DNA of 32,271 nucleotides, from IMG/VR virus record IMGVR_UViG_3300049460_000384, positions 1-32,271 of that record. One strand, given 5' to 3'. How positions within the stretch are numbered: the first letter of the stretch is position 1; the number at the start of each line of letters is the position of its first letter. Shown here in pieces: positions 2,718 to 21,907 of this stretch. The position numbers and the translations under genes are program-made. The notes under the pieces were generated by a model. The model had not been told where the DNA came from. It saw nothing but the letters and a program-made list of their open reading frames with translations, and made no database searches. This DNA is from a virus.

Positions 2718-3022
2718 CGGCCGGGGAACGCGTCAAAGGCCTGAGCCACATTGCAAATCTTCGTACAAAAGTTTTCGGTGAAAGCTGCGGTGACGAGCTT
2801 AAGCGGTTCATGTTTGATATGCGCGATAAGCGCGATGTGTATTTTGAAAAGAATAAGCGTGCGCTGGCCGCAATATTCTTTCTGGCAAACCTTAAGTCAG
2901 AGCGTCATGAATGTGACTTTGATGAGCTGACGAGTGATGAAAAGTACGCGCTGATAGGTGCAATGAACCATTTTCGTGCAGTCGTGAGTTTATTTCCTAA
3001 GAAGCTTTCACTACCTAATTAA
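2681..3022 (+). CDS. Early protein of unknown function (DUF5347-like)
   Basis: 113-aa protein with no known enzymatic motif. The pattern MTAGERVKGLSHIANLRTKVFG, then RDKRDVYFEKNKRALAAIFFLA, is typical of the DUF5347 family found in enterobacterial P2-like prophages, as far as I can recall. It appears cytoplasmic and mostly helical. The ATG at 2681 lies inside fil and is preceded by GGGAGT, so it is probably translationally coupled to fil. It occupies the place where 186 carries small host-inhibition genes such as dhr; this does not prove that function. Confidence 0.75.
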   Translation: MAINAEQAIVPMTAGERVKGLSHIANLRTKVFGESCGDELKRFMFDMRDKRDVYFEKNKRALAAIFFLANLKSERHECDFDELTSDEKYALIGAMNHFRAVVSLFPKKLSLPN

Positions 3023-3089
3023 ATAACCAACCGAAATTAAAGGCGTAAACCCGCCGGGCATTCTTTTGCCTTAAATCTGGAGAGAGTTA

Positions 3090-3317
3090 ATGAGAAACAT
3101 TGAAACGAAAGTAATGAAGACCACCCCAGAAGCGATCGAGTCATTGCTGAATGCTGCACGTATGGATGAGCGCCGCAATCGTGCCGCTGTCTTTTCATCC
3201 CGCCTTAATTTCCTTGCGGAAAAAATTGCCAGTGGTGCGGCGAATTCTATTGAAGCCGCTGAACTGATTCGCGAAGAAGCTGAAGAGATTCAGAAACAGA
3301 CGCAGGAGCTGCACTAA
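3090..3317 (+). CDS. Small early protein, DUF2732-like
   Basis: 75-aa, strongly helical, charged protein (MDERRNRAAVFSSRLNFLAEKIASGAANS... EAEEIQKQTQELH). Length and pattern fit DUF2732, a family of unknown function common in the early operon of P2-like prophages. It has GGAGAGAG at 3079-3086 as ribosome site after a 67-base gap. Its stop codon overlaps the next start codon (TAATG at 3315-3319), a sign of coupled translation. Confidence 0.75.
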   Translation: MRNIETKVMKTTPEAIESLLNAARMDERRNRAAVFSSRLNFLAEKIASGAANSIEAAELIREEAEEIQKQTQELH

Positions 3318-3544
3318 TGGCTGATTCAATGGATTTAGCGCAGCAGCGCGAGGCTGAGAATCTGGCCCGCAGCCTGGCAAATGTGATCAATCGCCCTGTG
3401 CAGATTAGCGCGTTCTTCTGTGAAGAATGCGAAGCACCGATCCCCGAAGAACGCCGCAAGGCTCTTACTGGCGTGACGTTGTGTGTGACCTGTAAACAAC
3501 TCGAGGAGCTACACGCTTCTCATTTCAGAGGAGCGTCAGTATGA
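3317..3544 (+). CDS. TraR/DksA-type zinc finger protein
   Basis: 75-aa protein with one four-cysteine zinc finger: C35-x2-C38 (FFCEEC) and C56-x2-C59 (LCVTC), separated by PIPEERRKALTGV, the hallmark of the TraR/DksA family. An N-terminal helix precedes the finger. Short phage members may bind RNA polymerase in the secondary channel like TraR, but many have no assigned function. The gene is fused into the operon by overlaps on both sides (TAATG with the previous gene, ATGA with dam). Confidence 0.85.
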   Translation: MADSMDLAQQREAENLARSLANVINRPVQISAFFCEECEAPIPEERRKALTGVTLCVTCKQLEELHASHFRGASV

Positions 3545-4395
3545 ATACCGTTTTGAAGTGGGCAGGCAGTAAGTCACGCATCATGGCTGAGATTACTAAA
3601 CACTTGCCGGCGGGTGAGCGCCTCGTTGAGCCTTTCGCGGGTTCATGTGCTGTGATGATGAACACTGATTATCCGGCGTATCTGGTGGCGGACGTTAATC
3701 CAGACCTGATTAACCTCTATCGTCAGATTAAAGATAACTCTCGGCAGTTCATTATTTTGGCATTCCGGGCATTTGCGGAAAATCGCACGCAGGAAAGTTA
3801 TTACTCAATCCGCGAAGCATTTAATCATCATCTTGGGTTGCCATTGCTGGAACGCGCGGCCTATTTCCTTTATCTGAACCGCAATGGCTATCGCGGCATG
3901 TGTCGCTATAACCAGAAGGGCAATTTCAATATCCCCTTTGGTAATTACACAGAGCCGTATTTTCCGCTGGAAGAAATCAAAGCCTTTGCAGAAAAAGCAA
4001 AACGGGCAACGTTCATTTGTGCTGATTTTACTGAAACGCTGAACATGCTTAAAACCGGCGATGTGGTTTATTGCGATCCTCCATACGATGACACCTTTGC
4101 GGATTATCACAGTGGAGGCTTTGGAAAAGATAAACAGTATGAGCTGGCCTCCGTTCTCAGTGATGTCGCTAACCGGCACCCTGTCATCGCATCGAACAGC
4201 AATACCTGTTTAGTTAAAAGCTTATACCGCCAGTTTGACCTTCATGAGATCACAGCCCCTCGCAGCATTGGAGTTGCTGCTGGTAAAGGTAAAAGCGCTG
4301 AAGAGATTATTGCTGTTAGCCGTTCTGTTGGGGCGCAGGTTAAATACGCAAATCCTTCCATTTACCCAGGCCAATTCGCTGGAGTTGCATCATGA
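3541..4395 (+). CDS. dam: DNA adenine methylase, Dam/D12 class
   Basis: 284-aa adenine-N6 methyltransferase. The SAM-binding motif near the N-terminus (LKWAGSKSRI, residues about 5-14) and the catalytic DPPY at residues 179-182 (VVYCDPPYDDTFADY) place it in the D12/Dam class, whose usual target is GATC. VEPFAGSCAVMMNT (about residues 30-43) is a further class motif. Several phages carry such enzymes to escape restriction or to tune methylation-sensitive promoters and replication; which applies here cannot be seen. It overlaps the zinc-finger gene by four bases and the following forward reading frame by four bases (ATGA at 4392-4395). Confidence 0.95.
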   Translation: MNTVLKWAGSKSRIMAEITKHLPAGERLVEPFAGSCAVMMNTDYPAYLVADVNPDLINLYRQIKDNSRQFIILAFRAFAENRTQESYYSIREAFNHHLGLPLLERAAYFLYLNRNGYRGMCRYNQKGNFNIPFGNYTEPYFPLEEIKAFAEKAKRATFICADFTETLNMLKTGDVVYCDPPYDDTFADYHSGGFGKDKQYELASVLSDVANRHPVIASNSNTCLVKSLYRQFDLHEITAPRSIGVAAGKGKSAEEIIAVSRSVGAQVKYANPSIYPGQFAGVAS

Positions 4396-4967
4396 TCAGA
4401 CTTTTCGGTGGCTATATATCGGGTACTGTCCATCGCGGCAACCAGGCGTATCTTTGCTTTCAACCCGCGCAAGCCATGTCGGATTTATTTTCCCTGAAAC
4501 AAGCGTTGCCAGAAACTCGCCAAAATGTCCCGGTACCTGGAAAAGGTCTGTTGGCATTGGCAGAAATCGCGAATCGCCCAAAACAAACATCTCCACAGTT
4601 CGACGAGTCGCCTGGAGAGAAATGTGAATATCTGACTCTAGAGATTCCGGTGTGTCCCACTCAGGAAATCCTTGTGTATGGGTGTGCTGGAACGGTTGGA
4701 GCACGTTATTCAATGCGCGCCGGACAACTTCTTTCCATTCTTCGCGAGACGGCCACCTTGCTTCGACGCTCCATAGGACGCGACGAGCAATCTCATTTCG
4801 ACAGGATTCTGAGGGAAGCCAACGCTCAGCTTCGTAATTTCTCGTCGGCTCCAAAAACGCGTCACATGCGGCATACATGTCGGTCCCTGATAAGAGTCTT
4901 ACAGCAGCTTGAGGAGCATTTGCGCCAGGAACAAAACTCAACAGCTCATCGTAATAAGGACGTGTAA
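4392..4967 (+). CDS. Hypothetical protein between dam and A
   Basis: 191-aa protein of unknown function. It fits the operon tightly: its ATG overlaps the dam stop (ATGA), GGAG at 4381-4384 gives a correctly spaced ribosome site, and it ends three bases before the GTG of gene A. The N-terminal half looks beta-rich (LTLEIPVCPTQEILVYGC) and the C-terminal half forms basic amphipathic helices (RAGQLLSILRETATLLRR, RSLIRVLQQLEEHLRQ). Cysteine is unusually frequent (about 7) and there is no tryptophan. CTT is the commonest leucine codon, unlike its neighbours. A nearly coextensive antisense frame is also open; I favour this strand because of the operon fit and the base usage at codon positions 1 and 2. 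Confidence 0.6.
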   Translation: MIRLFGGYISGTVHRGNQAYLCFQPAQAMSDLFSLKQALPETRQNVPVPGKGLLALAEIANRPKQTSPQFDESPGEKCEYLTLEIPVCPTQEILVYGCAGTVGARYSMRAGQLLSILRETATLLRRSIGRDEQSHFDRILREANAQLRNFSSAPKTRHMRHTCRSLIRVLQQLEEHLRQEQNSTAHRNKDV

Positions 4968-4986
4968 TCGGTGACTGCCCTGACAT
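4396..4986 (-). CDS. Alternative antisense frame across the dam-A interval
   Basis: 196-aa open frame starting at ATG 4986 with GGAG seven bases upstream on the minus strand and ending with TGA directly beside the dam stop. The product is protein-like in composition, with balanced charge, six tryptophans and an amphipathic stretch (REEWKEVVRRALNNVLQPF). It would start inside gene A and be convergent with dam, an odd place for an operon gene. It competes with the forward frame over 4392-4967. Either one is a shadow or both are used; I consider this strand the less likely one. No homologue is recognised. Confidence 0.25.
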   Translation of the reverse strand: MSGQSPITRPYYDELLSFVPGANAPQAAVRLLSGTDMYAACDAFLEPTRNYEAERWLPSESCRNEIARRVLWSVEARWPSREEWKEVVRRALNNVLQPFQHTHTQGFPEWDTPESLESDIHISLQATRRTVEMFVLGDSRFLPMPTDLFQVPGHFGEFLATLVSGKINPTWLARVESKDTPGCRDGQYPIYSHRKV

Positions 4987-7283
4987 TTTATGCTCCATTT
5001 TCAGAATTGAGCAGCGACTATAAACCCGCAAATAAAAATCAACAACGATACGCCTGGCCGTGGAACGCACCACGGCAGGCTATTGGTAGTCCTTATCTCA
5101 CCTACGACCAAATCCAACGCCGCGATCAACTGATTGCGGCTGTTTCGCATGCGCGGGAATTATTGGAAGCGCAGCCCACCCTTGTCCGCATTGATGTTAA
5201 TCGCCGGCTGGCTGAGCTGGAGAAAGAGCATGGTGTTCAGCGGGCCAATGCCTACTTAACGAAAACCTTCGTTGAGCGGACATTGCCACGCCTTGAGCTG
5301 GTGAATGCGCAGTATCGTCTGGGGGAAATGAACCAGGGTACGTTTATGACGCTTACCGAGAACGCGGGCGATAACAGCCGGGCAGCAACCGCCGCCGGCA
5401 CTCTCTGGGAGTTGATGAGAAGATTCAACCGTCTTCCAGAAATGGCCCGTGCGGATGTTGATCTGCTGGCCGGTGATGTTGCCAGCTTCATTCTGGCTGA
5501 AATAGTTCAGGCACACAGCCTGGTGGGTGATGAATCAGATTACAAATACACTCACCGCATGTTCATGATGGCAGCAACCATTACCAGGGAGTTTAAGCAG
5601 ACGCCTCCACTTTGGGAGAAAGTTACGTCTCGCCTCTTTGACCCTGAAGAGGTTACCCCCGCCATCATGCGTATGCAGATGGAAAAATGGTGGAAAGGCC
5701 GGTTGCGGCGTATCGCGGCATCGTGGCGGGAACACCTCCAGATTGCCCTGGCTAACGTCAGCAAACAACACACCCCTTACGCCAGTAGCATGACAATCAT
5801 CGAATGGCGTGAACAGAAACGCCGCACCCGTGAATTTCTTAAAGGGATGGAGCTGGAAGACGAGGAAGGCAACCGCATCAGCCTGATTGAGAAATATGAT
5901 GGCAGCGTGGCTAACCCCGCGATCCGCCGTTGTGAGCTGATGAACCGAATTCGTGGCTTTGAGGATATCTGTAACGAGATGGGTTTTGTGGGGGAGTTTT
6001 ATACCATCACTGCACCATCGCGGTATCACGCCACTATCAAAACCGGCTACCGCAACCGTAAATGGAATGGCGCCAGCCCGGCAGAGACCCAGCGCTATCT
6101 TTGCAACGTCTGGCAGAAAGTCCGCGCAAAACTGCATCGTGAAGATATTCGCATCTTCGGCATTCGTGTAGCTGAGCCGCATCATGACGCTACGCCTCAC
6201 TGGCATATGCTGATGTTTATGCTTCCCGAAAACGTGGACCGCGTACGTCAAATCCTGCGTGATTACGCCTGTCAGGAAGAGAGTGATGAACTGACTACGG
6301 ATAAAGCCCGCAAGGCCCGCTTTCACGCTGAAGCCATCGATCCCGATAAAGGCAGTGCGACGGGCTATGTGGCGAAATACATTTCTAAGAATATCGACGG
6401 ATACGCTCTTGATGGTGAGCTTGACGATGAGAGTGGGAAAGAACTTAAAGAGACTGCTCCAGCCGTTTCAGCCTGGGCGGCGCGCTGGCATATACGACAG
6501 TTTCAGTTTGTAGGTGGCGCACCGGTTACGGTTTACCGCGAATTACGCCGTATGAAAGACAGCGAAACCGCTCACGGCCTCAGTGTTGAATTTGCTGCTG
6601 CTCATGATGCTGCAGATGACGGTGACTGGGCTGAATACGTTAATGCTCAGGGCGGGCCGTTTGTTCGTCATGACGATCTGGCTGTACGCACCTGGTATCA
6701 GGCATCTCAAGACCGGAACGAATACGGCGAGGAAACTCTGCGTATCAAAGGCGTGTATGCAACATCCGTCGGGGAGGACACACCAATTTTAACTCGTCTC
6801 GTGCAATGGAAGATTGTCGCGAAGCGGGCCGTTGAATTGGCGGTTGACCTTAAGGGTGCGAACGCGCCCTCTCGGAGTTCTGTCAATAACTGTACGGGGA
6901 GATTGGGATCTGAGGATCTGACGAAACCGGAAAGTATGCCTGATTTGGACTTTGGAAGTATGAGCAGAAAGGAACGGCGCAAGCAGTTGACCAGAATACG
7001 TTCCGAACAGCCTCAAAAGTCAGCCAAAGTATTCAAGCGATCGGATAAGAAAGAGTCCGCATGCATTCGTGTTATTGAACAGGTGCGTGATCTCAGTGGC
7101 GAAGTTATCAGTCGCGGACTTGCATCACGTTTGGTTGATGGAACTGAAACGCGTATTGGCGGGATGTGGTTCAGCAGTACTGCACAAGGTGAGCTGTTAC
7201 GGCCCCGCAAGAGAACCAGGGCAAAAGAGTTACTTACCAGATTTCATCTACTTGCGGAGAAGCAGAGAGGTAAACCAATGTAA
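4971..7283 (+). CDS. A: Replication initiator gpA, HUH endonuclease
   Basis: 770-aa rolling-circle replication protein that would nick the phage origin, become covalently linked to the 5' end and recruit host Rep helicase. The HUH metal site is clear at residues 402-413 (EPHHDATPHWHM). The twin nucleophiles are Y466 and Y470 (YVAKYISKNIDGY), spaced as in P2 gpA. P2 gpA is about 761 aa, so length agrees. The start is GTG 4971, preceded by AAGGA at 4956-4960 in the end of the previous frame. An N-terminal helical region of about 270 residues precedes the catalytic core. In P2-like phages the nick site lies inside or just after A; I could not pinpoint it. Confidence 0.97.
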   Translation: MTALTFYAPFSELSSDYKPANKNQQRYAWPWNAPRQAIGSPYLTYDQIQRRDQLIAAVSHARELLEAQPTLVRIDVNRRLAELEKEHGVQRANAYLTKTFVERTLPRLELVNAQYRLGEMNQGTFMTLTENAGDNSRAATAAGTLWELMRRFNRLPEMARADVDLLAGDVASFILAEIVQAHSLVGDESDYKYTHRMFMMAATITREFKQTPPLWEKVTSRLFDPEEVTPAIMRMQMEKWWKGRLRRIAASWREHLQIALANVSKQHTPYASSMTIIEWREQKRRTREFLKGMELEDEEGNRISLIEKYDGSVANPAIRRCELMNRIRGFEDICNEMGFVGEFYTITAPSRYHATIKTGYRNRKWNGASPAETQRYLCNVWQKVRAKLHREDIRIFGIRVAEPHHDATPHWHMLMFMLPENVDRVRQILRDYACQEESDELTTDKARKARFHAEAIDPDKGSATGYVAKYISKNIDGYALDGELDDESGKELKETAPAVSAWAARWHIRQFQFVGGAPVTVYRELRRMKDSETAHGLSVEFAAAHDAADDGDWAEYVNAQGGPFVRHDDLAVRTWYQASQDRNEYGEETLRIKGVYATSVGEDTPILTRLVQWKIVAKRAVELAVDLKGANAPSRSSVNNCTGRLGSEDLTKPESMPDLDFGSMSRKERRKQLTRIRSEQPQKSAKVFKRSDKKESACIRVIEQVRDLSGEVISRGLASRLVDGTETRIGGMWFSSTAQGELLRPRKRTRAKELLTRFHLLAEKQRGKPM

Positions 7284-8024: not shown

Positions 8025-8043
8025 GGCGTGGCGGGGGTACGAG
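8025..8043. other. cos site core (cohesive ends)
   Basis: GGCGTGGCGGGGGTACGAG matches the first twelve bases of the 19-base cohesive end I remember for phage 186 (GGCGTGGCGGGG...) and closely that of P2 (GGCGAGGCGGGG...). It lies between the end of the early region and gene Q, which is where cos is found in these phages. The terminase (gpP/gpM) would cut here, leaving 19-base 5' overhangs. The last seven bases differ from P2/186, so this phage may not share sticky ends with them. The exact nick positions are taken by analogy. Confidence 0.75.
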
Positions 8044-8096
8044 CGCGCGCGTTATGGTATAGTTATAGAGTAACAGTACTTATAGCTGAGTTGGTG

Positions 8097-8711
8097 ATGG
8101 ACTGGAAAATGAAAAAAAGCAAACTCAAAGATAATGCAATCAGAATCATTTATACGATAGTATTTTTCGTTGTAATGGTATTGGCTTGGTTTTTTCGCGA
8201 TTACTTCTTATATGAGACACGTCGTTTTAATCTAATAAGTTACATTGGCACTGTTGTTACAATGCTGGGTATTATCATTACTTTTTCAGAAGTGATACAC
8301 AGTGTTATGATAAGCAGAAGTCTTCAGAAACAAGCTCAAGATATACTCGGTGGTTTCAAAGTTAAAGAGTTTGACGTGTTGATAAACGAGCTTATTACAG
8401 GGTTGGAATATATTATTTCTGATATTGATAATAAACAGTTTACAATTGCATTAAGGCAAATTTATTCTTTCAATAGAACCTTTAAGCGTATAAACACGAG
8501 TTATCATGATTTTTATGGTGAGAATGAACTCAATATACATGATAAAATTAATAAAATAGAGGTGGATATATCAGCTTTAAAATATGCTGGACCCTCTATT
8601 ACAATACCCAATAAAACATGGATCGATTTAAATAATGATATTATGGAAGTTAAAAGTTTCTTTGTTAAAAAGCAATCAAGTTTAGGAGATTCAAAAAATG
8701 CTGCCATCTAA
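8097..8711 (+). CDS. AT-rich cargo: two-helix membrane protein of unknown function
   Basis: 204-aa protein with two N-terminal transmembrane helices (about residues 15-33 and 46-63), basic residues before the first, and a cytoplasmic domain of about 140 residues rich in Lys, Asn and Ile. No known family is recognised. The frame is open upstream to 7995, but that extension crosses the cos core, so ATG 8097 (or ATG 8109) is preferred. Its low GC content contrasts with the phage backbone. It sits in the A-Q interval, where P2 carries its exclusion genes tin and old, and is coupled to the next gene by a 14-base overlap. A role in phage exclusion is inferred from that location. Confidence 0.78.
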   Translation: MDWKMKKSKLKDNAIRIIYTIVFFVVMVLAWFFRDYFLYETRRFNLISYIGTVVTMLGIIITFSEVIHSVMISRSLQKQAQDILGGFKVKEFDVLINELITGLEYIISDIDNKQFTIALRQIYSFNRTFKRINTSYHDFYGENELNIHDKINKIEVDISALKYAGPSITIPNKTWIDLNNDIMEVKSFFVKKQSSLGDSKNAAI

Positions 8712-9000
8712 CATTTACGGTATGGTTGTTAAACTTGTTGAGATGACCCGACTTGGAAGTGTCTCATGGGTGTTTGATTACTATAATGACAAGGCCTCTG
8801 CATCTTTAGAGCATTTTTCTGTTGATGTCATTTCAGCATTCGACAGTGATTCTGGCTTGTCATATTTTCATGTGGATTATTTTGAAAAAGCCACAAGGCA
8901 ACACCATAGATTTTCAACTAATAATTTAGAATCTCAATATGACGCCGTTAAGGTATTATATGATGAAGCACAAGCATCTAATTTAAATATAAAATTTTAA
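8698..9000 (+). CDS. AT-rich cargo: small partner of the membrane protein
   Basis: 100-aa soluble protein of unknown function (MLPSNIYGMVVKLVEMTRLGSVSW...). Aromatic-rich strands such as SGLSYFHVDYFEK and a helical end (ESQYDAVKVLYDEAQ) suggest a small alpha/beta fold. It starts inside the membrane-protein gene with a strong AGGAG (8684-8688) ribosome site, so the two are made together. A hairpin at 9008-9026 follows its stop. Stoichiometry, and whether it is an effector, sensor or antitoxin, cannot be read from the sequence. Confidence 0.75.
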   Translation: MLPSNIYGMVVKLVEMTRLGSVSWVFDYYNDKASASLEHFSVDVISAFDSDSGLSYFHVDYFEKATRQHHRFSTNNLESQYDAVKVLYDEAQASNLNIKF

Positions 9001-9007
9001 TTTCATT

Positions 9008-9026
9008 GGGGTGAATATTTCGCCCC
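9008..9026 (+). terminator. Hairpin after the two-gene cargo unit
   Basis: GGGGTGAA (9008-9015) and TTCGCCCC (9019-9026) pair over eight positions with a 3-base loop. No T-run follows on the plus strand, so it is either a weak terminator or an mRNA-stabilising end. Confidence 0.45.
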
Positions 9027-9587
9027 ATACTACAATTTCAATAATTATAAGCCTTCTTTATTTAACATCATGCCCATTTAGTTCATAGGGCTGTTTTCTA
9101 ATTTTATTTCATTGTGAGTTGATATTATTATTTATTATGCGTGCATGTAAAGTATATATTATACGGCAGTGTGCGCTGTAAGATTTTTTTAAATTCCATT
9201 GGCTTCAATGATTTATAATTGGTCAAAAATTAAGTGTGAAATTTTAATTTTTTTCTTGTGGTTATTTTGTAAAAATAAGTGTCGTTGTGACTTCACTTTT
9301 ATCGTGCTATATCGATTTTTACAAGATGAGAATATATTATTCTAAGTTAAATATTTTGGTTAGCAATGTACGTGTTTATTTTAATTAATTTCAGTTACGC
9401 AATAAGTTTTTCATTTACACGACAAATATCATGCCCATGATTATTATATCATGTGAAATAATAACATTGTGTTATATATAAACTGTGAATCAAATTTTTA
9501 GTGATGTTTAGGTATGCAGCGAAATATGCTTTACTTTTTAAGTATCCAGTGTTAATTAAGACTAATCCTAATGATTGTTAAAGGTGT
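9027..9587. other. AT-rich intergenic stretch without a recognisable gene
   Basis: About 560 bases between the small cargo gene and the DUF262 gene carry no convincing reading frame. The sequence is very AT-rich. It contains an 11-base direct repeat ATCATGCCCAT (9067-9077 and 9428-9438) and a weak dyad around 9440-9465 (TTATTAT...ATAATAA). The promoter of the DUF262 gene must lie in its right part, but many AT-rich hexamers make an assignment arbitrary. A small RNA cannot be excluded. Confidence 0.6.
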
Positions 9588-11330
9588 ATGATGGAACTGC
9601 ATGCTTATACTCGAACTATTTCTGAATTGTTATCTGTAAATAGAAAATATGTTGTCCCAAGATTTCAGCGTGAATATTCTTGGATGAAAGAACAGATCAA
9701 TGAGCTTTGGTTTGATGTGATTTCAAATATAAAGAAAGATAACAACTCACAACTTATCAATAATGAGTATTTTATAGGTTCCTTAGTATTGGTGGGAGAT
9801 GAAACCGGTAAGGAGATGCAAATAGTTGATGGTCAACAGAGATTAACTACTATAACTATTTTTCTTTCAGTGCTGTGTGAATGTTTTGTAGGTATTAAAA
9901 AAAATCAACTAGCGGATGCTCTTTTCGAAAATTATATTGAAGGGAAAGATGATGATGGCAGGAAGTTTTTTAAACTGATCAATGAAACGCCTAAGCCATT
10001 TTTCCAAAGAAATATTCAGCATATTCAGAAAAAGAATGACCAGCCAGAGACTCAAGAAGAAAGAAATCTTTTGTCCGCTTATAAAGAAATTACTTTTCTA
10101 GCTTCTAAGGAAAAACTTTGCAGGCATTTTGATGTGGCTAACCCATCAGATGAAGAATATGAAGTTATTCTAAAGGCTGTAAGAGATCAAGTATTAAGGT
10201 ATCTAAAAATAATCTTTATTACTGTTAATGAAGAAGATGAGGCTTATACAATTTTTGAGACCTTAAATGCCCGCGGTATGAATTTAAGTTTTGTTGATTT
10301 AATAAAGAATAAACTATTTAAAGCGTTAAATGATGATCATCCAAGTGATGAGGCTAAAGATAACTGGCGGAAGATAAGGTCTATATTGACCCAGCGATCT
10401 GGGGCGGGGACAATTGAAAACTTCATCAGGCATTGGTGGGTTTCTAAATATGCATACGTAAGTAACGAGAACCTTTATAAGTCTTTTATTGGTAAATGGA
10501 GGAAAGGCGAGATTGATCCTGTTAAGTTCATTCGTGAACTCAAGGATGATGCGCATCTTTATGCAATGCTATCTTCTCCTTTAGAAAGTGACTTCCCCCA
10601 GATGGAAGATAAACCAATTTTTAACGCGCTGAATTCAATCAAATTATTTGGCATTACACAGTGCAGACCGTTCTTTTTATCCTTGCTTCGTGCTAAGAGT
10701 AACGGTACTGTTCGGCATCGCGATATTATTAATGCTGTTAAAGTTATCGAAAACTTTCATTTCATGTTTAACGCAGTTTGTTCATTGAGGCCATCAGGGA
10801 TTGAAGGTGCATACTCAAAAGCAGCTAGGTCAATAAATCAATTAACATCAACCAAGGTTTCAAATGGTGTTGTTATTCAGCAGTTGTGCGCATTATTAAG
10901 TAACAGAAAGCCAGACATCTCAGTATTTACAGAGAACTTTAGGGATGTGGTATTTACTGACGAGCAGTCTAAACAAAAGAAACTTATTCAATATATGATC
11001 AGCCAATTTGAGATGGTCCGACATTCTGGTAAGGAATATAAGCCTGACTCCATCACTTTAGAGCATATTAAGCCTCAAAGTGATGGTGGTGAAAAAGAGA
11101 TTGGAATGATTGGGAATCTCTTGCCATTATCAAAGGTACTCAACGAAGAAGCAGGTAATTCATGCCTTGATGATAAAATTCCTATTTATACTAAATCGGA
11201 GTTTAAAATGGTTGAGGAATTTATAGCTGAGTATTATGGTTATTATAATGGTGTATGGGATTTGGAGTCCATTGTGGAAAGAACAGATAGATTAGCCGGC
11301 GAGGCCTATTTAACAGTTTGGTCTCATTAA
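9588..11330 (+). CDS. GmrSD-like DUF262/DUF1524 restriction protein
   Basis: 580-aa single-chain protein. The N-terminal DUF262 domain shows VPRFQREYSW (residues 23-32) and the hallmark IVDGQQR (79-85), a ParB/Srx-like nucleotide-hydrolysing fold. The C-terminus carries the DUF1524 His-Me (HNH-like) nuclease signature LEHIKPQ (E492-H493) followed by IGNLLPLSKVLNEEAG near residue 510. This is the domain order of GmrSD type IV restriction enzymes, which attack modified phage DNA; related DUF262 proteins include other phage-defence nucleases. AAGG at 9581-9584 precedes ATG 9588. It is AT-rich, has its own terminator and lies in the A-Q accessory hotspot, so it is probably lysogen-expressed cargo that defends the host. 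Its target is unknown. Confidence 0.9.
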   Translation: MMELHAYTRTISELLSVNRKYVVPRFQREYSWMKEQINELWFDVISNIKKDNNSQLINNEYFIGSLVLVGDETGKEMQIVDGQQRLTTITIFLSVLCECFVGIKKNQLADALFENYIEGKDDDGRKFFKLINETPKPFFQRNIQHIQKKNDQPETQEERNLLSAYKEITFLASKEKLCRHFDVANPSDEEYEVILKAVRDQVLRYLKIIFITVNEEDEAYTIFETLNARGMNLSFVDLIKNKLFKALNDDHPSDEAKDNWRKIRSILTQRSGAGTIENFIRHWWVSKYAYVSNENLYKSFIGKWRKGEIDPVKFIRELKDDAHLYAMLSSPLESDFPQMEDKPIFNALNSIKLFGITQCRPFFLSLLRAKSNGTVRHRDIINAVKVIENFHFMFNAVCSLRPSGIEGAYSKAARSINQLTSTKVSNGVVIQQLCALLSNRKPDISVFTENFRDVVFTDEQSKQKKLIQYMISQFEMVRHSGKEYKPDSITLEHIKPQSDGGEKEIGMIGNLLPLSKVLNEEAGNSCLDDKIPIYTKSEFKMVEEFIAEYYGYYNGVWDLESIVERTDRLAGEAYLTVWSH

Positions 11331-11370: not shown

Positions 11371-12414
11371 TTAGGTCTGTAATGTATACGGTGTGAACTT
11401 TATGATTTCATCATTCATCCAATTATTTAATTCTATAATTCTCTTTTGAAGGGCTGTTAATTCGTTCCTTACAAATACGTTGCTAGCTTTTTCAATATCC
11501 CCAAACCCACCAACATTGCTTGGCATTATCCCCATCATCTGTGGCGGAACTCGGTGCGCTGCCATCATGTCATCCCGACTCACATTCTTAATACTGAGAA
11601 ATTCATCCTTAGCAGCCACCTCTGACAGCGGAATGATCTGAATGCCGTCTTTCTTGCCGTTCGGCGAATACATAAATAGATTGCGGAAGTTGCCCGGTCC
11701 CTTCGCTCCTTTCATCGCGGCGCGGATGTTGTTCACGTCCTCCTGACTCTGCGCCGGGTCAGTCATGTACATGATAAAGCCCGCGTGGCTTCCGTTCATG
11801 TAGTACTTGCGGCGGAACAGCGTGGCCGACTCATTCAGCAGCGTGGAAGGAATGGCTGACAGGTACTCCGGCAGACCGTAAACCTCCTGATTCAGATCCG
11901 GTTCCATCAGGTGAAAAATGCTGCCTTTGGTGAATTCATACGGCTGCGATGTCAGGCCATACTGCACAAACCAGTAGGTGTCTAAATCGGTGCCGCGCCG
12001 GGTAAATTTCGCCAGTGCCGGCTCAAGCGACAGCACGCCACCAAGGCGATTAGTGCGCCTCTCCAGATATGCATTACCAAACACCAGATAGTCCTGAACG
12101 AAGCGGCTGAACGCCTGCTGGCTCAGAAGCGGGTGAGGGATAAACGTGCTGGTCAGGATGTTGCGCTTAACGGCAATCGGCGAACTGTGATGCACGGCTG
12201 CGCGGAACGTGCGCGCCAGCCCGTCAAAACTCACCGGCGGCTCATACCACTTATCCATCACCACGCATTCGACGTAATCCAGTAGTTCCCGCCGGTCCAG
12301 CACCGGCACCGGATCGCCAAAGGTGAACGCCTCCGCGTGCGGCTGTTGCGGCGCGCTGGACTGAACGGTTCGGGTAATGGCCTGCTGGCCGCTGCGGTTC
12401 CTGCGTTTGCTCAT
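11371..12414 (-). CDS. Q: Portal protein gpQ
   Basis: 347-aa portal vertex protein of the phage PBSX/P2 portal family; P2 gpQ is 344 aa. Twelve copies would form the DNA entry channel of the capsid and bind terminase. Typical segments are VLTSTFIPHPLLSQQAFSRFVQDYLVFGNAYLER and LPEYLSAIPSTLLNESATLFRRKYYMNGSHAGFI. It is transcribed leftward behind P; its ATG follows the P stop with no gap (TAAATG), so translation is probably coupled. The last 15 codons are more AT-rich than the rest, next to the cargo junction. Confidence 0.96.
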   Translation of the reverse strand: MSKRRNRSGQQAITRTVQSSAPQQPHAEAFTFGDPVPVLDRRELLDYVECVVMDKWYEPPVSFDGLARTFRAAVHHSSPIAVKRNILTSTFIPHPLLSQQAFSRFVQDYLVFGNAYLERRTNRLGGVLSLEPALAKFTRRGTDLDTYWFVQYGLTSQPYEFTKGSIFHLMEPDLNQEVYGLPEYLSAIPSTLLNESATLFRRKYYMNGSHAGFIMYMTDPAQSQEDVNNIRAAMKGAKGPGNFRNLFMYSPNGKKDGIQIIPLSEVAAKDEFLSIKNVSRDDMMAAHRVPPQMMGIMPSNVGGFGDIEKASNVFVRNELTALQKRIIELNNWMNDEIIKFTPYTLQT

Positions 12415-18955: not shown

Positions 18956-19352
18956 TGCCGTGCCATACGTGCGTGAAAATCCTGACCGGCTCCATCTGTT
19001 TGTGGATAACGGTTCGCTGGTTGCGACATCAGCCAACTCCGTTTCGTGGGAGTACCGTTACACGCTGAATATCGTGATAACGGACTTCACCGGCGATCAG
19101 AATCTGCTAATGGCACCCGTCCAGTTCTGGCTGCGCGATAACCAGCCGGACGCCCTTCAGAATACGGCAGAGCGGGAAAGGCTATTCACCTTTGAGGTGG
19201 ATATTCTTGGTAATGACCGCTGTGACCTGAGCCTGAACCTCAAGCTGACCGAACGGGTGATCGCCCGCGAGGTGGATGGCGTGATGCAGGTAGAGGCCGT
19301 GCCGGAGCCTGGGCAGCCGGACGAATTCTGGGCATCACATCAACATGGATAA
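18918..19352 (+). CDS. R: Tail completion protein gpR
   Basis: 144 aa; P2 gpR is 155 aa. The N-terminus MNKPQSLRKALNDAVPYVRENPDRLHLFVDNG and the block SWEYRYTLNIVITDFTGDQNLLMAPVQFWLR are typical. It is needed to finish tails or join them to heads. It overlaps lysC upstream and S downstream by eight bases. Confidence 0.95.
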   Translation: MNKPQSLRKALNDAVPYVRENPDRLHLFVDNGSLVATSANSVSWEYRYTLNIVITDFTGDQNLLMAPVQFWLRDNQPDALQNTAERERLFTFEVDILGNDRCDLSLNLKLTERVIAREVDGVMQVEAVPEPGQPDEFWASHQHG

Positions 19353-19800
19353 TTTGCAGCAGGTTGATGCCTGGCTGGCCGCGCTGCTTAATCAGCTGGA
19401 ACCCGCCCAGCGCTCACGGATGTTGCGTGAGGTGGCGCGGGACGTGCGCAAAATTCAGCAGGCGAACATCACCGCTCAGCGTGCACCGGACGGAAAGGCG
19501 TGGGAGCCGAAGCGCGTGACGGCCAGAACTAAGAAAGGCCGTATTCGACGGAAAATGTTTACGAAGCTGAAAACAGCGAAGTATCTCAAGGCTCAGGCAA
19601 ATGCGAATCAGGCTGAAGTGTTTTTTACCGGGCAAGTTCAGCGACTGGCCCGCGTTCATCACTACGGGCTAAGGGACAAGGTAAACCAGCGCGGTACGCA
19701 AGTGAAGTATACTGCGCGACCGTTACTAGGTATTACGATTAATAGCGAATCAGAAATCAAGGACATACTCACTCGCTGGCTATCCCATATGGTGCAATGA
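19345..19800 (+). CDS. S: Tail completion protein gpS
   Basis: 151 aa; P2 gpS is 150 aa. It starts MDNLQQVDAWLAALLNQLEPAQRSRMLREVARDVRK, with the basic segment KRVTARTKKGRIRRKMFTKLKTAKYLK and the conserved RVHHYGLRDKV. It acts in tail completion. It is the last gene of the O-to-S late operon. The last 20-30 codons drift to AT-rich usage, right at the border of the cargo gene that follows. Confidence 0.95.
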   Translation: MDNLQQVDAWLAALLNQLEPAQRSRMLREVARDVRKIQQANITAQRAPDGKAWEPKRVTARTKKGRIRRKMFTKLKTAKYLKAQANANQAEVFFTGQVQRLARVHHYGLRDKVNQRGTQVKYTARPLLGITINSESEIKDILTRWLSHMVQ

Positions 19801-19810
19801 TCTTAGTTGG

Positions 19811-21253
19811 TTATTTTATATTGAGTAGGTGAGAGCTTATTTCCTCCATGGTTTTTTTGAAGAATTCAGGTTTAAAGAAATTGTGGTAGTTATTGAGGTG
19901 TCGGTTGTCTATTTTTGTTTGTGAAATATCCCATTGGAGTATGGTGAAAATGCATCGCGTTAGTAATATTTTTAAGTGTTCTAATGCTATAGCTACTTGT
20001 GATAAGTATTCGCTATTGATGACATCGCCATGTACTATTCTGTTTCTTATTGTATAAAGTCCAACTGAATTGTTTTTTTTGTCATCAAAAATAGGCCATA
20101 TGTCATTTCTTGGGACATCGAACTCACTGAAGAAAAGTTCTGCGGATTCTTTGAGTGAAACCCTATTCAATTCAAGTAGCTTGCTTTTTATTTTTCCTCT
20201 TTTTTCTTTTTGATTGGGTAAGAAGTCATGGATGGTTTTTTCTATTAAACCTTTTAGCTCAGAGAATTCCGTTTGCTTGAGTATAAATTCAAGTTCATTG
20301 CTTCTCTTGCAAGTCAAAATCAATGATTCAAGCGCTTGAAAGTAACTTAAAAATGCCAGTTCTATTATAGTGCTGTTGCGGCCATCTAACGAATGGATAG
20401 AGTTGTTTATTGTATCTCTATAGATTGATGATTTGTAAATAGGCAGGGAGTCAGTAACGAATTTTTGTACATCTTTCCTTTCAATTAGCTCTTTGGCGGG
20501 ATCGTCTTTAATATCTGTCAATTTGAGGCGCTTACTGCGATAGTGCCAAATAATTTCATTATTGAAATCCGCTCTCCAATTTACATAACTTACCCTGCCG
20601 CTATGAGCGAAAGATAAAAGCATTAAAATGTCATCAACCTCATTGGAAATATTTTCATTAATGTAGGTTATGGGGTTTTTGTGTTTTTTTATGGTTGTTG
20701 CAAGTATTTGGTATCTATCAGATTCAAAATGACCATTGTTTGAGCTATATGTGTAAAGGACATCGGATTTTATTGGATTTGAATTACTCAAATTAAAGCT
20801 GATTGGTTCGCTTTTAGTTTGCTTTACTTCCCCGTTTTCATTTGGCTCAGTGTAAGTTCTCGGAGCTATCATGGGTGACTTGTTGATGTAAAATTTTAAT
20901 TTTGAAGGTTTTCTTTTTGATGTGTAATGTAGTTTTCTCCTTACGTTCACTTCTTGAGGAAACAAGAAGAGAGAGTAAGTGGAGTTATGACCAAGAGAAA
21001 AGCTAACGCCTCTAATGTTTGCATTAATGATTTTTGTTGATTCAATTATGTCCCCACTCAGATTGATGGTGGAGTATTCAATGTTTACAGAGTTCATTCC
21101 TTCCATAGAAGCTAGCTTTGAATCTGAAGATGTGATTTTAATCTTATTCCAATGGAGGCTGTTTTCAACTTCCACGTCACAATATATTTCTAATTTTTTT
21201 CCAGATTCAAAATTAAAAGTTAGTAGCTGGTTTTCTTGGTTTTTTTCCGCCAT
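19811..21253 (-). CDS. ApeA-like HEPN domain protein, probable anti-phage cargo
   Basis: 480-aa, AT-rich gene on the minus strand between S and V. The N-terminal part (about residues 10-200) is beta-rich (LLTFNFESGKKLEIYCDVEV...) and resembles the N-terminal domain of ApeA-type proteins. The C-terminal part is a helical HEPN domain with the nuclease motif R403-x4-H408 in IRNRIVHGD. HEPN proteins of this architecture cleave RNA and give abortive phage defence. The start is ATG 21253 with AAGGA at 21261-21265 (minus strand, seven bases); the longer frame to 21304 lacks this. It would be expressed independently of the late genes it faces. The assignment to ApeA rests on architecture, not on a search. 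Confidence 0.8.
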   Translation of the reverse strand: MAEKNQENQLLTFNFESGKKLEIYCDVEVENSLHWNKIKITSSDSKLASMEGMNSVNIEYSTINLSGDIIESTKIINANIRGVSFSLGHNSTYSLFLFPQEVNVRRKLHYTSKRKPSKLKFYINKSPMIAPRTYTEPNENGEVKQTKSEPISFNLSNSNPIKSDVLYTYSSNNGHFESDRYQILATTIKKHKNPITYINENISNEVDDILMLLSFAHSGRVSYVNWRADFNNEIIWHYRSKRLKLTDIKDDPAKELIERKDVQKFVTDSLPIYKSSIYRDTINNSIHSLDGRNSTIIELAFLSYFQALESLILTCKRSNELEFILKQTEFSELKGLIEKTIHDFLPNQKEKRGKIKSKLLELNRVSLKESAELFFSEFDVPRNDIWPIFDDKKNNSVGLYTIRNRIVHGDVINSEYLSQVAIALEHLKILLTRCIFTILQWDISQTKIDNRHLNNYHNFFKPEFFKKTMEEISSHLLNIK

Positions 21254-21263
21254 ATCTTGTTCC

Positions 21264-21283
21264 TTGTGTAGTGTACCGTACAA
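21264..21283 (+). promoter_or_regulatory. Ogr-type activator site of the V late promoter
   Basis: TTGT (21264-21267), N12 and ACAA (21280-21283) repeat the dyad seen at the O/P promoters. It is 46 bases upstream of the V start, the same distance as between the O/P dyad and the P start. A -10-like CATACT lies at 21317-21322. The site abuts the ribosome site of the divergent HEPN gene, so the two genes share a control region. Confidence 0.7.
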
Positions 21284-21300
21284 ACACCAATTCTTGGTGT
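21284..21300. promoter_or_regulatory. Perfect palindrome upstream of the HEPN gene
   Basis: ACACCAA (21284-21290), TTC, TTGGTGT (21294-21300) is a perfect 7-bp inverted repeat lying between the Ogr site and the V -10. It could be an operator for the HEPN gene or for V. No T-run follows, so a terminator is unlikely. Confidence 0.45.
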
Positions 21301-21328
21301 TCACATCTTAGCTTCTCATACTGTTGAA

Positions 21329-21907
21329 ATGAATGCACAACTGACCGAAATCATGCGCCTTATCACCAACCTTATCCGCACCGGAACCGTTTCGGAAGTG
21401 GATAAGGATAAATGGCTGTGCCGGGTGAAAACGGGCGACCTTGAAACCAACTGGATTAACTGGCTGACATTACGCGCCGGGAGTTCCCGCACCTGGTGGA
21501 AACCGTCAGTGGGTGAGCAGGTGGTTCTGCTGAGTCTGGGCGGCAATCTGGAAACCGCCTTTGCACTGCCCGCCGTTTATTCAGATGCTTTCCCGCCGCC
21601 CTCAGATTCTGAAGATGGCAGCGTGACGGAGTACCCCGACGGCGGCTGGTTCGAATATGAACCTGCCACCGGGCGCTGGCTCATAAAGGGCATTAAGAGC
21701 GTGCTGATTGAAGCCTCTGACAGCATAGAGCTGAAGACAGGCGCGTTCATTGTCACCGCAGACCAGACGCAAATTAACAGCGAGGTTGTCATCAACGGCG
21801 GCGTGACGCAGGGCGGCGGGACGATGACTTCTAATGGTGTAGTGGCGGATGGCCATACCCATGATGGCGTGGCAAAAGGCAGCGCAAATACCGGAGGGCC
21901 ACACTGA
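21329..21907 (+). CDS. V: Baseplate spike protein gpV
   Basis: 192 aa (P2 gpV 211). An OB-fold region comes first (RTGTVSEVDKDKWLCRVKTG... RTWWKPSVGEQVVLLSLGGNLETAF), followed by a triple-stranded beta region and a C-terminal HTHDGVAKGS-like tip, where P2 gpV binds metal at histidines. It forms the membrane-piercing spike of the contractile tail. The predicted transcript start is almost at the ATG and no strong ribosome site is seen, so translation may be near-leaderless. Confidence 0.95.
   Translation: MNAQLTEIMRLITNLIRTGTVSEVDKDKWLCRVKTGDLETNWINWLTLRAGSSRTWWKPSVGEQVVLLSLGGNLETAFALPAVYSDAFPPPSDSEDGSVTEYPDGGWFEYEPATGRWLIKGIKSVLIEASDSIELKTGAFIVTADQTQINSEVVINGGVTQGGGTMTSNGVVADGHTHDGVAKGSANTGGPH

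Follow-up and report, generated by a model that had tools for sequence, protein, structure and literature searches.

A putative mobile two-gene cargo unit beside cos in a P2-like phage

The cos-Q interval and its genes

The window (the whole 32,271-bp stretch that was analyzed, a virus record from IMG/VR) follows the P2-like gene order, with an integrase, a CI-type repressor, a Dam-like methyltransferase, A, cos, cargo, Q, and the late genes. Used as a query, its portal protein Q was 87% identical to that of a Pantoea agglomerans prophage and 96% identical to that of a short viral contig fragment (L082), and because of these two matches the host of the phage is likely an enterobacterium, perhaps near Pantoea. 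L082, the closest relative by Q, carries in the same slot a reverse transcriptase gene adjoining Q (2991-3968 of that contig, minus strand), which appeared by inspection to be of the retron type.

Next to cos we found two overlapping genes, TM204 and P100 (Table 1), exactly as the initial annotation had described them. They are AT-rich, as it had also stated, with a GC content of ~31% versus ~52% in gene A and ~58% beyond Q. The neighbors of the pair in the window are proteins of phrog_698 and phrog_2100, cos, a GmrSD-type gene, and Q. The overlap measures 14 nt (8698-8711) and is kept in the homologous pair of L185, the AGGAG lies ~8 nt 5' of the P100 ATG, and the two genes are probably translationally coupled. 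TM204 may start at the ATG at 8109 rather than at 8097, because the homologs suggest so. None of 5,000 random sequences generated with a dinucleotide model contained an ORF of at least 200 aa or two of at least 100 aa, and both ORFs can be taken as coding, since their homologs are 57% (TM) and ~72% (P100) identical, with dN below dS.

A terminator-like hairpin directly follows P100 in the window, and one stands right behind P100 in all six of the members that were folded (z from -2.8 to -5.9), with sequences that are unlike between subgroups. Because every folded copy has its own hairpin at this place, each looks like a transcription unit closed at its 3' end. The stretch 9001-9590 as a whole has ordinary structure (z -0.72), no RNA family was found in the window, and the promoter listing had no sigma-70-like entry for the interval from cos to TM204.

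Table 1. Positions of the features discussed, in the window unless another contig is named
Feature	Position	Strand	Evidence
Gene A	4971-7283		
cos (GGCGTGGCGGGGGTACGAGC)	8025-8044	+	alignment with P2-like loci
cos and end of conserved block, left boundary of variable cargo slot	8025..8052	+	alignment with L184, L185, L198; also L221
TM204, 204 aa	8097-8711	+	ORF; homologs L184/L185/L219/L188/L163/L164; hydropathy; AF2 model
P100 ribosome-binding site AGGAG, within the TM204 gene	8684..8688 (to ~2 nt)	+	sequence
P100, 100 aa, acidic soluble partner	8698-9000	+	ORF; homologs; AF2 model; pI 5.1
Terminator-like hairpin directly 3' of P100	9007..9027	+	fold -13.6 kcal/mol, z -3.96
Single-chain GmrSD-type protein (PADLOC HEC-06), beside Q	9588-11330	+	GmrSD_N 3e-38, GmrSD_C 2e-11 (Pfam); HEC-06 6e-91 (PADLOC)
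Q, portal protein, right boundary of slot	11371..12414	-	query for relatives
P100 remnant, permease-phytase locus, L205	4121-4187		
P100 remnant, permease-phytase locus, L206	3905-3971		
P100 remnant, permease-phytase locus, L207	3988-4053		
P100 remnant, permease-phytase locus, L208	3918-3984		

When aligned, the P2-like loci share the pattern GGC..GGCGGGG..ACGAGCGCGCGC and have unrelated DNA thereafter; the locus alignment, L221 included, puts the end of the conserved block just past GAGCGCGCGC, at ~8052, from where the DNA is different in each phage. The pair starts ~70 bp to the right of cos, within that portion of the A-Q hotspot which extends from cos to Q, and given the positions of cos and of the end of the block, its distance from the left virion DNA end is ~70 bp. 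We compared this interval across P2-like relatives, as had been proposed, and among the 123 with a recognized cos the cos-Q distance ranged from 151 to 6160 bp, with more than 600 bp of cargo in 101. The pair thus sits as cargo between A and Q, beside cos, at a place where unrelated DNA is substituted in relatives.

The available text of PMC9122126 presents the A-Q interval as an established hotspot of antiviral genes, places P2 tin and old in it, and reports partition and virulence genes from the same hotspot. The initial annotation was right to assign the pair to this hotspot, but its comparison with tin and old has to be narrowed, as the site lies strictly between cos and Q. In P2 that interval measures only ~190 bp and holds no cargo (P2 Q ends at 187), so that the P2 tin and old lie on the opposite side of cos. 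The cargo was also described too short: the pair occupies 8097-9000, but a second cargo gene, of the GmrSD/HEC-06 type, follows it.

Elsewhere in the window, an AT-rich gene for a 497-aa protein (19811-21304, minus strand) lies between tail genes (ORFs 19345-19800 and 21329-21907), on the opposite strand. The protein has an RNRIVH motif like that of HEPN RNases and had no Pfam or PADLOC match. In L007, L101, and L151, relatives of the gene lie about as far from Q, and the position looks like a second cargo site.

Family searches and predicted structures

Neither TM204 nor P100 matched a family in Pfam, PHROGs, NCBIfam, or PADLOC, which agrees with the earlier impression that the proteins belong to no familiar family, and further family scans with the aligned relatives of both gave nothing above chance. 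In PADLOC 2.0.0 (2023), TM204 and the other members of alignment A3 had no match at E≤1, and the P100 of the window had none either. No catalogued SLATT/CBASS-type 2-TM effector family was listed for any member in Pfam at E≤1, a search that remote homology would escape. The pair would therefore define two protein families new to these four collections, and our literature searches turned up no described system that matches.

Hydropathy indicates two N-terminal membrane helices in all members, as claimed initially, and the AF2 model of TM204 (pLDDT 73.5) agrees, with two membrane helices followed by a helical bundle. From hydropathy and helix ends, the membrane helices lie near residues 13-32 and 45-68. 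TM204 is predicted, with modest confidence, to form an inner-membrane hairpin that carries a helical bundle on the cytoplasmic side. Most members have positive charge in the N-terminal segment, which is why the two termini of the protein are expected to be cytoplasmic. The structure search matched TM204 to many unrelated bundles of helices, generic in kind (best Z 13.4). Four-helix bundles are common, which, together with the modest confidence of the model, would count against reading a specific role from the fold.

P100 is modeled as helix-five strands-helix (alpha-beta5-alpha) with a pLDDT of 90.7 in the best of five models, to be taken with some caution because the other four scored 56-66. 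Searched against the PDB, it had no match at E≤0.001; its best VIA hit (Z 5.9) was to parts of methyltransferases, and its BFVD matches were mostly uncharacterized proteins, at E≥1.3e-3. In all members the TM protein is basic (pI 7.7-9.3) and P100 acidic (pI 4.4-5.1), which is compatible with a complex of the two, though not proof of one.

Distribution and genomic contexts

A whole-genome search of the family of P. agglomerans returned distant relatives of TM204 in four genomes (E from 2.5e-8 to 8.5e-14), with P100 relatives directly downstream in each. Among the 392 family-level genomes, both proteins occurred in these same four and a full-length protein occurred alone in none; a fifth P100 match (G110) is a remnant of only 19 residues. 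The viral-contig members were reached by alignments built after the whole-genome searches. Four other P2-like phages have the pair at the cos-Q site (L184, L185, L186, and L198/L219, the last two names denoting the same contig), at ~57% (TM) and ~71% (P100) identity and without a GmrSD-type gene. L219 also has an Hcp-family gene (T6SS_HCP, 2e-34) between A and cos (4464-5729, plus strand), followed by a 148-aa ORF and a DUF1493 ORF, which resembles an Hcp plus effector/immunity-like cassette.

In three further P2-like contigs (L187, L188, and L189), the pair is located after D and ogr. The contigs L187 and L189 stop short of the pair or inside it, and P100 was read in L188. Outside phages, the 4.5-kb contig L163/L212 codes for a relaxase and a replicase, with the pair as the only other recognizable cargo, and is evidently a mobilizable plasmid of which the pair is the sole cargo. 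In L164 and L165 the pair is chromosomal, flanked by a permease gene and by one for an esterase-like phytase (names by inspection). Wherever both genes are intact (L184, L185, L186, L198/L219, L188, L163, and L164), their order is constant and their spacing is -14 to +4 nt, and L165 has the same arrangement with a broken TM gene.

Hence, wherever we found relatives, in a genome or in a phage locus of sufficient length, those of TM and those of P100 were present together, and the pair is a true unit, as had been suggested; the possibility that its genes never occur together elsewhere was not borne out. Because the pair recurs in unrelated contexts, each folded copy ends in a hairpin of its own, and purifying selection acts on P100 (see below), TM204-P100 is by all indications a self-contained, horizontally mobile two-gene module. 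The same contexts (phage cos-Q, after ogr, plasmid, and chromosome) argue against a role in phage morphogenesis: genes for morphogenesis or packaging would be core and confined to phages, whereas the pair is also found on a small plasmid and in chromosomes.

The independent lineages that carry the pair are few. It was absent from the 160 nearest Q loci, tblastn with pair members gave no match in the phage and plasmid collections, and blastn gave none for the pair in E. coli genomes. Scanning viral and genome contigs for exact peptides of just the window proteins gave no match, nor did the genus of P. agglomerans yield any, while an early P100 alignment had only chance-level matches in 369 class-level genomes. 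The order-level search had G259 as its sole match.

Selection and decay

P100 is under purifying selection, with dN/dS values of 0.215/1.73 for the window and L185, 0.035/1.91 for L164 and L165, and 0.026/0.207 for L184 and L185; for the TM gene, L184 and L185 gave 0.024/0.129, and many other dS values were saturated and unusable. TM204 evolves faster than P100.

Within the genus of G294 (24 species), the pair occurs in two species, at one chromosomal locus, and in one of the two the TM gene is interrupted by a TAG, with P100 intact. A stop in the TM gene beside an intact P100, as read in L165, is as expected if TM204 were the costly half, with all of the decay evidence coming from one locus. 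In four more species of the genus, all that is left of the pair at this locus is the final 67 nt of P100 (Table 1), and since the four remnants share a breakpoint, one ancestral deletion is suggested. In a remnant that was read directly (L201), a hairpin and a T-run come next, and the remnant has perhaps been kept as a terminator.

Possible function

We infer the role and trigger of the pair from its position and architecture. The reading that we prefer, with the chances about evenly balanced and the doubt concerning mostly the function and not the existence of the unit, is a mobile exclusion or defense unit in which TM204 would be a membrane effector regulated by the cytosolic, acidic P100. 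P100 would bind the basic TM204 and hold it inactive, or sense infection on its behalf; upon infection by another phage, P100 might be titrated, modified, or lost, and the freed TM204 would oligomerize and disrupt the membrane. The infection would abort, and the resident prophage or plasmid would thereby exclude competitors. Of the proposals in the initial annotation, joint action of the two genes is supported, and a role in exclusion is plausible. This reading is suggested by the slot, a known antiviral hotspot in the available text of PMC9122126, by the cargo of more than 600 bp in most relatives, by the retron-like reverse transcriptase in the L082 slot and the GmrSD-type gene in that of the window, by the combination of a basic TM protein and an acidic P100 in all members, and by the conservation of the pair, its order, and its spacing across contexts, with P100 under purifying selection. 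The hotspot position is a prior and not proof, because partition and virulence genes also occur there according to the same text. Against defense, PADLOC defense families are unmatched, and the sequence and fold matches point to no specific mechanism. More tentative, with a chance that we put clearly below even, is the stronger claim that enterobacterial mobile elements carry in TM204-P100 a minimal antiphage system of two proteins that has not been described before. In it, a 100-residue acidic domain resembling no solved structure would directly gate a 2-TM effector, with neither an enzyme nor a nucleotide messenger, the whole being a 0.9-kb unit moving among phage, plasmid, and chromosome.

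Toxin-antitoxin maintenance, with TM204 as a membrane toxin and P100 as a proteic antitoxin, overlaps with this explanation, the benefit being plasmid or prophage retention instead of defense. Like type II systems, the pair consists of two small neighboring genes that are coupled and run in the same direction (overlapping by 14 nt in the window and spaced by -14 to +4 nt in other copies), with basic/acidic complementarity; it is the sole cargo of a 4.5-kb mobilizable plasmid, and in L165 it is the TM gene that is broken while P100 is intact. However, the effector comes first in the gene order, P100 has no significant match in Pfam, NCBIfam, or PADLOC to a known antitoxin family and none to a DNA-binding family, so that no autoregulation is implied, and a small plasmid is probably multicopy, with less need of maintenance. 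We consider pure maintenance unlikely.

Quite unlikely, in our estimate, is superinfection exclusion at entry, in which an inner-membrane TM204 would block the DNA passage of related phages without toxicity, P100 serving as an assembly or stability partner. Small prophage-encoded membrane proteins are the classic exclusion proteins (established knowledge; available text of PMC11436027), the TM204 gene is at a prophage cargo site, and no toxin-like domain was found in the family scans. Such proteins, however, usually act alone, with no need of a tightly co-conserved soluble partner, and the pair also occurs on a small plasmid and in a chromosome.

We regard as similarly improbable another form of lysogenic conversion, in which the pair would help the host through an envelope, transport, or stress function unrelated to phages. 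Non-defense cargo is known in the same hotspot, in the available text of PMC9122126, and one chromosomal locus has the pair in two related species and remnants in four more. That locus has nevertheless decayed in several species, and a rare, patchy occurrence (4 of 392 genomes) is unlike housekeeping.

Finally, a three-gene system formed with the GmrSD-type gene, which is adjacent and co-directional in the window, is very improbable and largely refuted, as L184-L186 and L219 have the pair only, L221 has a 68% relative of the GmrSD-type protein alone in its cos-Q slot, and the hairpin and ~590 bp lie in between; pair and GmrSD-type gene are evidently independent modules stacked in one slot.

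Comparison with known systems and meaning

Short hotspot-borne units with a membrane protein are already known in kind. The available text of PMC9122126 lists old/tin, retrons, a HAD with a TM protein, and TIR with TM proteins as cos-proximal cargo of P2 and P4. TM204-P100 shares with these systems the slot by cos between A and Q, the size of a short one- to three-gene unit, and the membrane placement of TM204, several of them having membrane proteins presumed to be effectors. Compared with the systems in that text, the pair has no family match in PADLOC 2.0.0, PHROGs, NCBIfam, or Pfam and no enzymatic sensor such as RT, TIR, or HAD, and its place is to the right of cos, on the side that in P2 is free of cargo.

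By architecture only, TM204 also resembles 2-TM membrane effectors that have a sensing domain in the cytoplasm, such as Csx23 (PMC11014256) and the type III-A CRISPR effector Cap1, whose domain is CARF-like (available text of PMC12642688), since two N-terminal membrane helices precede a cytoplasmic domain; by analogy, a membrane pore or disruption upon activation is proposed. Unlike these effectors as far as the available texts describe them, TM204 has a cytoplasmic part predicted to be all-helical and a small protein as partner, and neither a cyclic-nucleotide synthase nor a CRISPR locus was seen near the pair. Among the ORFs read in the other contexts, part of which were scanned, none was recognized by eye as a nucleotidyltransferase or signal synthase. 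With proteic toxin-antitoxin pairs that have a membrane toxin, it shares the small coupled genes, the acidic cytosolic partner, and carriage by plasmid, prophage, and chromosome; it differs from them in lacking a family match and in a partner without a DNA-binding family.

If our reading is true, a very small two-protein exclusion or defense unit would be added to those known, together with two protein families that Pfam, PHROGs, NCBIfam, and PADLOC lack. The small size of the unit means that simple cloning suffices for each test. For the P2-like phages, cargo to the right of cos can arise by the stacking of independent modules, as exemplified by a pair that occurs without the GmrSD-type gene in four phages and a GmrSD-type gene that stands alone in another.
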